From assembly GCF_000759885.1 (NCBI RefSeq), contig NZ_JNAH01000004.1, positions 1 through 64,000 on the forward strand: a stretch of 64,000 bases of DNA. The letters are read 5' to 3'. The notes beneath the pieces are model-generated. The model did not search any database. It was not told where the DNA came from and saw only the letters and a list, made by a program, of their open reading frames with translations. This document shows positions 12,133 to 46,614 of the stretch, piece after piece (within the stretch, counting starts at the first letter, position 1; the number at the start of each line of letters is the position of its first letter). Made by a program: the position numbers and the translations under genes. The stretch comes from Prochlorococcus marinus str. GP2. Lineage in GTDB: Bacteria; Cyanobacteriota; Cyanobacteriia; PCC-6307; Cyanobiaceae.

Positions 12133-12234
12133 CTAACTAGTGTAAGATTTACCTCTATAAGTAAGTTCATTATGCTGTTTTTTTACAGCTTCCTTGTTTT
12201 GAGTGTACTTTTGTCCTCTGTAAATAAGAGTCAT
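12133..12234 (-). CDS. 33-residue DUF4278-like peptide under riboswitch control
   Basis: A 33-residue peptide beginning MTLIYRGQKY. Two copies of a short motif are visible (LIYRGQKY at 3-10 and LTYRGKSY at 24-31), the kind of L.YRG..Y motif that defines the DUF4278 cyanobacterial small proteins. There is no membrane segment. It stands alone between a riboswitch-bearing leader and a strong terminator, an autonomous regulated unit. Short peptides of this kind are the usual downstream gene of the downstream-peptide (glutamine-II) RNA motif, and an involvement in nitrogen status is the natural inference; its molecular target is not known to me. Confidence 0.85.
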   Translation of the reverse strand: MTLIYRGQKYTQNKEAVKKQHNELTYRGKSYTS

Positions 12235-12242
12235 TTTTTAAG

Positions 12243-12312
12243 CTCCGGTTTCGCTTAAGTCCCCGTTCCATGGCCTAAGTCGATTTGCGGCTTGCTAAAC
12301 GCAAGTTGAACG
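12243..12312 (-). ncRNA. Glutamine-II riboswitch (downstream-peptide motif)
   Basis: The 5' leader of the 33-residue peptide is markedly richer in G+C than its surroundings. It contains CGTTCA (12312-12307) pairing with GGAACG (12269-12264) to close the main stem, an inner GC-rich arm, and then GGGACTTAAGCGAAACCGGAG split over the pseudoknot region, ending in the CCGGAG Shine-Dalgarno sequence 8-9 bases before the ATG. This order (CGUUCA, GGAACG, GACUUAAGCGAAACCGGAG) matches the conserved core of the downstream-peptide RNA, known to bind L-glutamine. Placement of the ribosome-binding site inside the pseudoknot implies translational control. A separate 5-bp hairpin lies just upstream at 12319-12332. 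Confidence 0.85.
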
Positions 12313-12332
12313 TTTTTGGTAGCGGTTGCTAC

Positions 12333-12347
12333 AAATTTATACTAACA
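12333..12347 (-). promoter_or_regulatory. Likely promoter (-10) of the riboswitch transcript
   Basis: On the minus strand, TTAGTATAAAT lies immediately upstream of the hairpin and riboswitch, giving a good -10 element (TATAAA). No convincing -35 box is seen at the standard distance. A start site near 12330 would place the short GTAGC/GCTAC hairpin at the very 5' end of the RNA. Confidence 0.5.
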
Positions 12348-12541
12348 TCTGAGAAAATTATTTGTCTAGGTCTTTAATAAATAAACTTAATATTTTTATT
12401 ATGAAATTAGGCTCCTACTAAAAATATATATGTTTATTTTTATGAAGTTTCTTGCAGGTTACATTTTGTTCGTTTTTCAGAAGTATTTTTTATTTAATGA
12501 ACTTTTAAATGTAAAATTCTTAGGATTATAAAATTTGTTTT

Positions 12542-13086: not shown

Positions 13087-15420
13087 TTAATCTTTTGGTT
13101 TGGCCAGAGGAAGAAGACACTTATCTGAATCACAACCCGCTGGTCCTGCTTCAGATAGTTCTCCAACATCATATTTATTAAGAGCGTCAAAGAAATCACT
13201 ATTGACTTTCCTCTCTAATACTTTATTTTGCAATGATATATATTCCTCTTTGCTTATTGGTTCAAAAGGTAACCTCGGGAAAGTAGCGTTAGCACTAAAT
13301 CGAGCCAACAATGCCGCTGAAATATATCCTTCATTATTTTCTATTGCATTATGAATAGCTTTTGCTAAATCCTCGATTTCATTTTCTCTAAATTCTACGG
13401 TTGCAGAGGTATTATGCTCTGTGTAAAATTTCTGCACTTGCATGTAAAAATCAAATTGAGCTAATGCTGAGAAATTATTGATGTCTATTTGGTCTGCGCC
13501 CTTTATGTTTGCCCAACTAACTTCTGTAGGTATTTCAACTAACCATTCTGTACATCTTGGATCAAATGGATTATCGAGCAAGCATCCATTTTCATCTTTA
13601 TCTGATTGAGATGGAACAACTGAGTAACCATAATCCATGCAAGCTAAAGCAATTGGGTCATTTTTCCTGAAAGTTATTCTTCTTATGAATCTTTGAGCCT
13701 TTGGAGGATGCCATCCTGGAGCTGCTCCAGTAAGAAGACTCTTAGTTCCCGCTGGCTGTACTGTTGTGCATCTATTTGGTCTTCTTAGATTATGCTTATC
13801 ACAATATTCCCATACAGTTTCTTTTACTATTTTTCTCCAATAATCTAGGAATTTAGCTTCCTTTTCTTTGAAGGCCTTCCCTTCTTCGTTATTTGGCCTT
13901 CCTGCTTCCCACCATTTCAACCATGGCGTCCCAAAGGCATGGACACAAAAATCAAATAATCCAGTGAAACTTACTCCCACAATAGGATCATATTCCCTAC
14001 TTTTTCTGTAACGCTCAACTTCAAATTCATGGTTAAGTAAGCATGCTACAGAAAGAGCCGCTGCTTTAAAAGCCTTTTTTTGCTCTTCAAAATTTCCTGG
14101 ATCAATTTGATTTAAATGAACTTCAGCTAAATTGCAGTGGAAATCATTTCCCAAGATCTCACCACAAGGGTTAAGTCCATATCTGCTCATCCTGTGGTCC
14201 AACTCTTCTTCTGAAAATGGACCATAACTACTATTTATCCAATTTCTCGCTTCATCCTTACCTTGTTCTGAGTAGATTTCAATAAATTCTTTTCTCAATT
14301 CATCATCCTTGAGAATATCTGCATTTGATCTTGCGATTGCTTCTGGAGCAAATTGAATAGCTCCCTCCCCGGAATAGAATTGTTTCGTTACTGCATCTAA
14401 AACAGTTTGGTAAGTTGGTTTAGTATGGTAAACCCTAGTATGATTAGCCATCCTTAGGGCATCTTTTTCAGGATCTATTCTCCAATTACCATTCTCATCT
14501 TGACTCCATAAATTTTCTTTCGCAGATGCTGCTTCCTTATCATCTGAAGCAAATTGTCTCATTCCAGCACTTCTTCTTATATTCCCAGCAACTATGGTTA
14601 CTGCAGCTTCATCAATTAATAAACAACACTCTACAGTACTTAATTTCCTTCCTATCGCTTTTCCAAGAAGTGATGCGACTCTAGAGTAAAGATCTTTCAG
14701 TTTGATAGGATTTGCCATACCACCAAAACCTTTTAATGATTCTCCAGCAGGCCTAATATCTTCCAAATCAATATAAACATCAATTTCTCTTGCAAGATTC
14801 TCGTTACTTGATGCCTCAAGAAGATATTTATAGCTATCTACCCATCCTCTTCTGCTATCTCCAACTTTGATATGTAGGTCTTTACCTTTGATTTCTAATG
14901 ATGATTTTTCTTCCCTTTGATCTTTAGGAGTGATTCCAACTTCGCTAACTCTTTTAATGTTTATTTTGTTTATTACAGTAGGTAAATTGTTTATAAAATG
15001 AGGCTCAATTATTGCACCTGTGCCACAACCCATCATTGCTAAGTCCATCATTAAAGCAAAGGCTTCCCAATCAATTAAATTTGTTGAAGTACAGTTGTAT
15101 GCCCCGGAAAAATTTTGGTTTTTATTAATCCAAGGAGTTCCTCCAATCCATAACCATCTCCCTGATGGTTGAGCTTTTTGGTTGCTTTGCATCTCTCTCA
15201 TCAGGATCAATTCTTCATCAGAAAGTTTTCCTAATTCTTTTAAGCCTGATAAATTCCTTTGGCCTACTTCGCTCCAGTTCTCCCTTTTGCCAGATGAAGT
15301 TTTTCTACTGTAAGATCTGAAAAAAACTGGATAAGCAGCTGGAGCAGTCTTTGGAAAATCATCTTTTTTAAGATTATTGGAATTGCTCTCTGAAGAAGCT
15401 TTATTTGGTGCAACAGTCAC
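13087..15420 (-). CDS. nrdJ: Adenosylcobalamin-dependent ribonucleotide reductase (class II)
   Basis: A 777-residue class II reductase that makes deoxyribonucleotides using B12 as radical source, so no NrdB subunit is needed. Visible signatures are the N-terminal Cys region GAYNCTSTNL, MGCGTGAIIEP, the radical-site loop GLNPCGEILG, QPAGTKSLLTGAAPGWHPP for the phosphate site, and the redox-active C-terminal pair GCDSDKCLLP. The GTG at 15420 (reading MTVAPNKAS) is chosen; an in-frame TTG at 15483 would add 21 residues of unlikely hydrophobic sequence. The 130-base gap to the divergent methyltransferase gene has no obvious cobalamin riboswitch. Confidence 0.93.
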   Translation of the reverse strand: MTVAPNKASSESNSNNLKKDDFPKTAPAAYPVFFRSYSRKTSSGKRENWSEVGQRNLSGLKELGKLSDEELILMREMQSNQKAQPSGRWLWIGGTPWINKNQNFSGAYNCTSTNLIDWEAFALMMDLAMMGCGTGAIIEPHFINNLPTVINKINIKRVSEVGITPKDQREEKSSLEIKGKDLHIKVGDSRRGWVDSYKYLLEASSNENLAREIDVYIDLEDIRPAGESLKGFGGMANPIKLKDLYSRVASLLGKAIGRKLSTVECCLLIDEAAVTIVAGNIRRSAGMRQFASDDKEAASAKENLWSQDENGNWRIDPEKDALRMANHTRVYHTKPTYQTVLDAVTKQFYSGEGAIQFAPEAIARSNADILKDDELRKEFIEIYSEQGKDEARNWINSSYGPFSEEELDHRMSRYGLNPCGEILGNDFHCNLAEVHLNQIDPGNFEEQKKAFKAAALSVACLLNHEFEVERYRKSREYDPIVGVSFTGLFDFCVHAFGTPWLKWWEAGRPNNEEGKAFKEKEAKFLDYWRKIVKETVWEYCDKHNLRRPNRCTTVQPAGTKSLLTGAAPGWHPPKAQRFIRRITFRKNDPIALACMDYGYSVVPSQSDKDENGCLLDNPFDPRCTEWLVEIPTEVSWANIKGADQIDINNFSALAQFDFYMQVQKFYTEHNTSATVEFRENEIEDLAKAIHNAIENNEGYISAALLARFSANATFPRLPFEPISKEEYISLQNKVLERKVNSDFFDALNKYDVGELSEAGPAGCDSDKCLLPLAKPKD

Positions 15421-15554
15421 GATAAAAAAAATGTATGTAAATAACCTGTACTGGAAGAATAACTCTACCTGTGGCGTCTGCAACCATTCTTACCACTATT
15501 TAACGGTTTGTGTAGAATTATGTTTAATATGAAATCTTTGTTTCAAGAAAGGAT

Positions 15555-36892: not shown

Positions 36893-36913
36893 AAAAATAA
36901 GTTAGAGTTAAGT

Positions 36914-37089
36914 CACTGGATCTTTGGTTAAGTTCTTCTTTATGTGCTCTGATCTGACTCTCTTTCGACATGAGGAGACTGTCGTGATGCGGTAGTAAAC
37001 CGATCTTGTAATCGGAAACGAAAGCCCACTTTGAATCCTCTTCTGGCATTTCCAGGTCGATGCAGCAGAGAACTGACGGGGATCCGGTG
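36914..37089 (+). ncRNA. ssrS: 6S RNA
   Basis: A 176-base segment directly after purK, much richer in G+C than flanking intergenic DNA and without a plausible reading frame. Its ends form a perfect 9-bp closing stem (CACTGGATC at 36914-36922 with GATCCGGTG at 37081-37089), followed inward by AGTTC with GAACT, and it contains further hairpins (CGACA/TGTCG, CCGAT/ATCGG, CTGG/CCAG). A long rod with a central bubble and the purK linkage fit cyanobacterial 6S RNA, which binds the housekeeping RNA polymerase holoenzyme. Exact ends are estimates; a few unpaired bases may extend each side. Confidence 0.85.
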
Positions 37090-37090
37090 T

Positions 37091-37138
37091 TACCTATCAA
37101 AATGCTTGCAATAACAGGCATTTGGTAGGTATTTTATT
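37091..37138 (+). terminator. Terminator of the 6S RNA gene
   Basis: A long imperfect stem (ACCTATCAAAATGC with GCATTTGGTAGGT, loop about 11 bases) followed by a T-rich stretch. It ends the 6S transcript before the small-gene region. Confidence 0.75.
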
Positions 37139-40441: not shown

Positions 40442-40734
40442 AAAAAGATAAATCAGCATTTTTACTGATTTACTTTCTTTATATGTATGGCGTAGGTTTA
40501 ACTTATTGAATCGGAGGGATCAAATGATTGACAGTCCACCAGAGGAATCAGATTAAAAAAAATTTACATCTAAATAAAACTAATGCTAAATAAGGAATGA
40601 ATCTTCTATTAGAAATTCATTCCTTTTTTAATTATTTTAAAAACGTTAAATTATGAATATTAAATTTTTAAAATTAGAAAGTATTCATATTGAAATAATT
40701 AGATGTCAAAGTCACTTGTAGAAAGTGGCAAACT
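40442..40734. other. Non-coding interval with possible short transcript
   Basis: No convincing gene. It holds a weak AAATCAG/CTGATTT hairpin near 40452-40472, a ten-codon ORF (MIDSPPEESD, ATG near 40524) preceded by GGAGGGA, and a strong terminator at 40592-40628. The combination hints at a small RNA or leader peptide. Confidence 0.4.
40592..40628 (+). terminator. Rho-independent terminator
   Basis: A stem of AAGGAATGAAT (40592-40602) with ATTCATTCCTT (40615-40625), followed by a T-run. No gene ends near it on the + strand within 150 bases, which is why a short non-coding transcript is suspected. Confidence 0.8.
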
Positions 40735-46081: not shown

Positions 46082-46614
46082 AGAATTGGAAATTAAAAAT
46101 TATTAAAAGACAAATGAAATCATAGAGATCTCTAAAAAAATTTGTGGATAGTTTTTCTTAAAAGAAGATAATATTTTATTTTGCACATAGAAATTCAAAT
46201 TTAATCAACATATTGTGGAAAACCCTGTTGAAAAATGCTTAAATAGTGGATAACTCTTCGGGAGCATTATCAAAACAAGCTTTTCTGGAAAAATTTTTAA
46301 GTATTAATATTTCATCAAAAAAAATAAAATATAGTTTAAAAAGCATCATAATCACTTGTTATAACAGTGGGATCATTCCTTTTTTTTAAAGATAAAAATT
46401 CTCTTCCAGAAGCACATGTTGATAAAAAATTTAAAAAGTTTTTTCTTTATATGTATCAATTTGAAAATTAAAGTGAAGAAAAATCAAACTAAACTTGAAA
46501 TTTTTAATTTTTGCCATAGCTGATCAAAAAATGTTTTAATTCGGTTTTCTCTATTCAAAGATTTTTCAAAACAAAAATTAATCAAATACATTTGAGATAA
46601 TTGAAAAATTTTAA
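46082..46614. other. 533-base non-coding interval with DnaA-box-like sites
   Basis: No ORF longer than a few codons is convincing on either strand. The left part (46143-46253) carries four same-oriented DnaA-box-like sequences; the right part is AT-rich and otherwise featureless apart from promoter-like sequence before the gene at 46615. Confidence 0.5.
46143..46253. promoter_or_regulatory. Cluster of DnaA-box-like sequences
   Basis: TGTGGATAG (46143-46151), TGTGGAAAA (46214-46222), TGTTGAAAA (46226-46234) and AGTGGATAA (46245-46253). These match the reverse complement of TTWTNCACA with none or one mismatch, and all point the same way. TTTTCCACA is the usual DnaA box form in cyanobacteria. 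No dnaA or dnaN is nearby, so this is not the expected main origin. Confidence 0.45.

Follow-up and report, generated by a model that had tools for sequence, protein, structure and literature searches.

The closest described system is Yfr6 of Prochlorococcus MED4, which Axmann and colleagues reported in 2005 as a transcript of 244 nt with a 33-aa frame from nt 97, located near nrdJ. Initially it was counted among the non-coding RNAs, and its mapped start is the G after a TATA element (PMC1242208). Nitrogen depletion lowered MED4 Yfr6, with the signal termed inconstant in a legend (PMC1242208). The class of its leader later received the name Downstream-peptide motif (PMC2864571). According to a review, glutamine turns this glutamine-II class ON and the class precedes DUF4278 genes (PMC6316151). 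ON switching is described also in the crystal paper, according to which glutamine is probably in competition with a structure that masks the ribosome site (PMC6698751). The review further describes DUF4278 as the N-terminal part of the glutamine synthetase inhibitor IF17, dispensable for inhibition, and calls glutamine synthetase regulation in Prochlorococcus unclear (PMC6316151). Cyanophages and other marine phages have likewise been reported to carry glutamine riboswitches (PMC2864571, PMC9004378, PMC9602691, PMC9964418).

The Yfr6 unit and its aptamer

Judged by its sequence, the unit on the minus strand of the window (the whole 64,000-nt stretch of DNA analysed) is Yfr6, an orthologue of the known Prochlorococcus gene, and was thus already known; frame length, transcript length, place of the ATG, the nrdJ neighbour and the leader class all match MED4 Yfr6. 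The predicted transcript is about 246 nt long, from about G12332 to about 12087, with the ATG at nt 99. The nrdJ gene lies 0.9 kb from the unit, where TIGR02505 (adenosylcobalamin-dependent ribonucleotide reductase) was recognised at 13090-15483 with 860.8 bits. The first-pass annotation had described a glutamine-II riboswitch controlling a 33-residue peptide, and as a whole this observation was confirmed. Its interpretation was supported in part: riboswitch and peptide stand, the placement of the Shine-Dalgarno sequence does not, and the reading of a third hairpin is revised below. As the unit is a described gene, the value of the present analysis lies in its additions, a control box and relatives in marine viruses. 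The box would join glutamine sensing and NtcA at a single promoter, and this in the genus dominant in ocean photosynthesis. Rfam searches also placed 6S RNA, Yfr11 and Yfr17 in the window, at 36910-37094, 40505-40630 and 46106-46369 (+), respectively.

The aptamer was found by RF01704 at 12315-12254 on the minus strand. The hit spans the whole 60-position model and scores 66.7 bits, above the cutoff of 33 (E 6.3e-14 for the 64-kb search), which settles the covariance-model check in favour of the riboswitch. The core sequences CGTTCA, GGAACG and GACTTAAGCGAAACCGGAG, on which the riboswitch had first been recognised, are all on the minus strand. P1 consists of 12305-12301 with 12295-12291 and P2 of 12279-12272 with 12262-12254; the pseudoknot pairs CGUUC (12312-12308) with GAACG (12268-12264), as checked in the letters.

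This genome contains four RF01704 copies, and in one of the paralogues (L003) the pseudoknot is altered on both sides to CGUCC/GGACG. Within the genus, the class is present in 148 of the 151 genomes searched, including all 52 of those at least 90% complete, and reaches up to seven copies per genome. Across the family it occurs in 76 of 121 genomes and in 24 of 34 genera. A scan of genome contigs with one 14-base pattern returned mostly chance matches in unrelated bacteria. One Prochlorococcus contig carries two 14-base copies of the riboswitch core about 1.4 kb apart (L087 1553-1566 and 2930-2943).

Promoter and 5′ palindrome

A candidate promoter was located at 12368-12339 on the minus strand. 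It consists of a -35-like TAGACA (12368-12363), a gap of 18 nt and a -10 element TAGTAT (12344-12339), which ends 6 nt upstream of the predicted start G12332. This pair is weak alone, as the promoter scan found 3 promoter-like sites against 2.1 expected in shuffles. At the predicted start begins the palindrome GTAGCaaccGCTAC (12332-12319, minus strand). The first-pass annotation had noted a third hairpin at the 5′ end and considered it an extra RNA element. The palindrome is indeed there, but an NtcA operator fits it better, with one locus and one scan speaking against the operator. Most likely, on sequence grounds, the palindrome is an operator of the form GTA-N8-TAC (GTAGCAACCGCTAC, 12332-12319), located at about +1 to +14, its transcription being incidental.

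The main evidence comes from 152 distinct cyanobacterial riboswitch loci, which are related and non-independent; they remained from 162 after setting aside 9 that the pattern did not parse and 1 duplicate. GTA-N8-TAC begins 17 to 23 nt upstream of CGTTC in 142 of them, while shuffles averaged 0.6 and never exceeded 3 of 152 loci. The box would lie at +1 to +14, since TANNNT ends exactly 6 nt upstream of it in 66 of the 142 box loci. Three of the four riboswitch copies of this genome have the box. The same GTAN8TAC was found in all 30 amt upstream regions, and the word GTAGCAACGACTAC, found also before riboswitches, in 3 of the 30. For the related gene PMM1846, a review names an NtcA motif (PMC6316151); no statement that the motif is general or lies on the start site was found in the literature searched, to which the primary ON-switch paper did not belong.

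Other counts argue against the operator. Among glnA upstream regions, only 2 of 30 contain the strict GTAN8TAC. Genome-wide, the form GTAGY-N4-RCTAC is no more frequent than the backward pattern (6 sites versus 5, per strand), and the other sites, 3 of the 6, fall inside long frames. The box is absent in 10 of the 152 loci, among them L202, which keeps the stem without GTA/TAC.

The palindrome could instead be a working hairpin of the leader RNA, protecting the mRNA or taking part in the switch. Transcription from G12332 would include it, its fold has 5 bp, and the stem is kept in most loci; in L202 the stem is altered on both sides to GCAGC/GCTGC. However, at the fifth stem pair C.A mismatches are more numerous than U.G wobbles, 8 to 3 among 44 distinct words and 16 to 3 among the 142 loci, which does not look like a preference for an RNA stem, as a wobble would keep that stem. 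Furthermore, only a spacing of 8 is common (142 loci, against 0 to 7 for other spacings), and a word of the box found before riboswitches is shared with amt upstream regions. Viral riboswitches also manage without the palindrome: GTAN8TAC stands at the host offset in 0 of 66 viral cases and elsewhere within 45 nt in 4 of 66. We therefore regard a working RNA hairpin as improbable and keep the operator as the preferred reading.

The peptide and its proposed translational switch

The 33-residue peptide with two L.YRG..Y motifs is encoded at 12234-12133 on the minus strand, as the first-pass annotation had it. It matches DUF4278 (PF14105) with 35.7 bits, above the cutoff of 25.3, over profile positions 1-34 of 57, and no NCBIfam match was found for the 33-aa peptide. 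The frame is under purifying selection, with dN/dS of about 0.09 among 49 distinct sequences. In the same number of distinct sequences, pN/pS is 0.13 for this frame, compared with 1.50 and 1.15 for the two alternative frames, so the peptide is a gene. It seems extremely unlikely that Yfr6 is mainly a regulatory RNA with an incidental frame, as its original cataloguing as a non-coding RNA (PMC1242208) might suggest, given these ratios and the above-cutoff Pfam match. The peptide itself is not new, being a DUF4278 protein known as the Yfr6 frame since 2005.

The YRG motif also occurs in two paralogues of this genome. The fourth riboswitch copy (L004 1503-1740, G000:C7) is without the NtcA box and is followed by a 53-aa frame without DUF4278, the start of which weakly matches phrog_545 (E 0.0019). 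The AlphaFold model of the peptide consists of two strand pairs, with a mean pLDDT of 69 and a pTM of 0.22, and is too weak to use; for the 57-aa paralogue, no solved structure was found.

Downstream of the frame, the hairpin AAAAAACTCCCT/AGGGAGTTTTTT overlaps a run of nine T (12118-12085, minus strand). The strong terminator proposed at first pass agrees with the 13-bp hairpin in the fold; the hairpin lies beyond the range of 12133-12347 that had been given for the unit, and it is absent from the minus-strand output of a simple terminator scan.

The Shine-Dalgarno sequence GGAG is at 12246-12243 (minus strand), 8 nt upstream of the ATG. It had been placed in the pseudoknot, which is incorrect, as it stands 3′ of the aptamer end at 12254 and outside the CGUUC/GAACG pairing. 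In minimum-energy folds calculated without the pseudoknot, the linker after P1 pairs with the segment bearing the Shine-Dalgarno sequence and extends P2. The pairs in the window leader are UCG/CGA and CCG/CGG, the latter including two Shine-Dalgarno bases; CCG of the P1-P2 linker (12290-12288, minus strand) is predicted from these folds to have CGG 12247-12245 as its partner without glutamine. The pairing is longer in other loci, e.g. AGUUCGA with UCGGACU.

We compared linker and Shine-Dalgarno segments in 30 representatives, less than 85% alike, drawn from 147 loci. Cognate segments were more complementary than swapped ones (-7.80 versus -6.49 kcal/mol), a difference matched in 4 of 20000 permutations; with 8 representatives the number was 233 of 20000. 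Controls (P1, either P2 strand, aptamer linker reversed) gave 1263 to 2727 of 10000. When the Shine-Dalgarno segment was reversed instead, the count was 107 of 10000, and base composition thus accounts for part of the signal. Viral riboswitches did not reproduce the result: with 21 representatives the number was 9658 of 20000, and 13 of the 66 viral cases were unparsed. The folds fit the remark in the crystal paper on a probable competition between glutamine and a structure that masks the ribosome site (PMC6698751), and the pairing of linker and Shine-Dalgarno segment without glutamine remains a model. A second candidate for the OFF state, a UUAAGC/GCUUAA hairpin over the Shine-Dalgarno sequence, reaches -5.0 kcal/mol in an isolated fragment; it is an alternative only, as it is absent from the minimum-energy fold of the leader. 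The idea that the CCG/CGG pairing is conserved in all loci was dropped, since its register varies between loci.

Taken as a whole, we consider it probable that Yfr6 is an mRNA combining an NtcA box, a glutamine ON switch, a linker step at the Shine-Dalgarno sequence and a DUF4278 peptide. When nitrogen is short, NtcA would block transcription by occupying the GTAN8TAC box that covers the start site. When glutamine is high, the aptamer would fold and translation would be on, as published for the class. The folds suggest that without glutamine the P1-P2 linker would pair with the Shine-Dalgarno segment and extend P2, and that glutamine would pull the linker into the pseudoknot and free the segment. 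What the peptide then does is a guess by family. By analogy, our best guess is that it acts by protein contact in nitrogen control, and it may contact a protein of nitrogen assimilation, as the small inhibitors IF7, IF17 and PirA do elsewhere in cyanobacteria. By structure the peptide is not an IF protein, as it lacks the remaining part of IF17: the frame ends after 33 aa and contains DUF4278 only, without the C-terminal inhibitory part. PirA is reported as absent from these cyanobacteria (PMC8092223).

In 2008 the discoverers suggested that Yfr6 is a toxin and its antisense RNA Yfr14 the antitoxin (PMC2518516). In MED4, Yfr14 (627811-628062) overlaps Yfr6, and its level goes up at an early stage of phage infection (PMC2518516). 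We find this very unlikely, as the riboswitch occurs in up to seven copies per genome in the genus, two paralogues of this genome also bear the YRG motif, and DUF4278 together with glutamine control points to nitrogen regulation. By a simple offset from Yfr6, the expected place of Yfr14 in the window is 12171-12422 (+).

Viral relatives and comparison with known systems

A pattern scan of marine viral contigs from IMG/VR gave at least 120 stretches, and the 80 loci analysed (L350-L429) contain 81 matches. Of these, 63 precede a short YRG frame, defined as a short frame with [YF]RGxx[YF] within 60 nt after the pattern match. All but one of the remaining 18 come from contigs whose G+C is at least 0.48, and these 17 look like chance. 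As a background, YRG occurs in 153 of 10898 short ATG frames of the same contigs, riboswitch-linked ones included (among the matches listed). Rfam recognised a glutamine riboswitch in 16 of 20 viral loci, 10 of type II and 6 of type I. The peptides behind viral riboswitches are often 16-18 aa long among the matches listed.

One viral riboswitch region matches 26 named phage records, and 19 of the 20 listed have no annotated feature under the match. RF01704 scores 48.1 to 52.0 in P-SSP7, P-GSP1 and 9515-10a, before unannotated frames of 17 to 18 codons. In P-SSP7 (NC_006882.2; L470 1503-1626), a 17-codon YRGxxY frame lies unannotated between psbA and the gene for the major head (capsid) protein. 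L471 and L472 likewise contain a glutamine-II riboswitch and then an unannotated YRGxxY frame of 17 to 18 codons. The Yfr6 peptide is matched by PHROG 545 and 5049, both with no assigned function (E 3.8e-6 and 6.2e-5). A blastn search of the window unit against phages gave no match, and tblastn of the peptide against phages gave 7 records with E of 6 to 7, not significant. We found no mention of YRG peptides of phages in the literature searched, outside of which most subscription journals lie.

It is tempting to speculate, although we hold it doubtful, that marine cyanobacteria and their viruses have in common a family of glutamine-gated YRGxxY micropeptides with Yfr6 at its host end, in which each motif would be a minimal binding hairpin. 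The host would gate the peptide by both NtcA and glutamine. Phages would have lost the NtcA box but retained the glutamine switch, and their peptide of some 17 residues, which lacks annotation in P-SSP7, P-GSP1 and 9515-10a, would thereby take over host nitrogen regulation when glutamine is plentiful in infection. If made, the viral relatives would count among the shortest phage proteins that a riboswitch controls, and they would provide a direct handle on how cyanophages steer the nitrogen use of their hosts.

Compared with the published phage glutamine riboswitches (PMC9004378, PMC9602691, PMC9964418), the aptamers are the same and are here found before YRG peptides; the viral cases differ from the host in having no GTAN8TAC at the host position (0 of 66). 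The unit resembles gifB/IF17 of Synechocystis in its glutamine riboswitch, N-terminal DUF4278 and NtcA repression, the role of NtcA in the unit being predicted, whereas the riboswitch there is of type 1 and IF17 has a further C-terminal part (PMC6316151). Within the RF01704 class, P1, P2, pseudoknot and linker all match, no difference in the aptamer was found and the NtcA box lies outside it (PMC2864571, PMC6698751). MED4 has trnS near Yfr6, while no tRNA gene was found in the 64-kb window. Otherwise MED4 Yfr6 differs from the unit in sequence details only, such as the ATG at nt 97 versus the predicted nt 99, and Yfr6 of MED4 and SS120 shares with it the length of about 244 nt, the 33-aa frame, the glutamine-II leader and, in MED4, the nrdJ region (PMC1242208).
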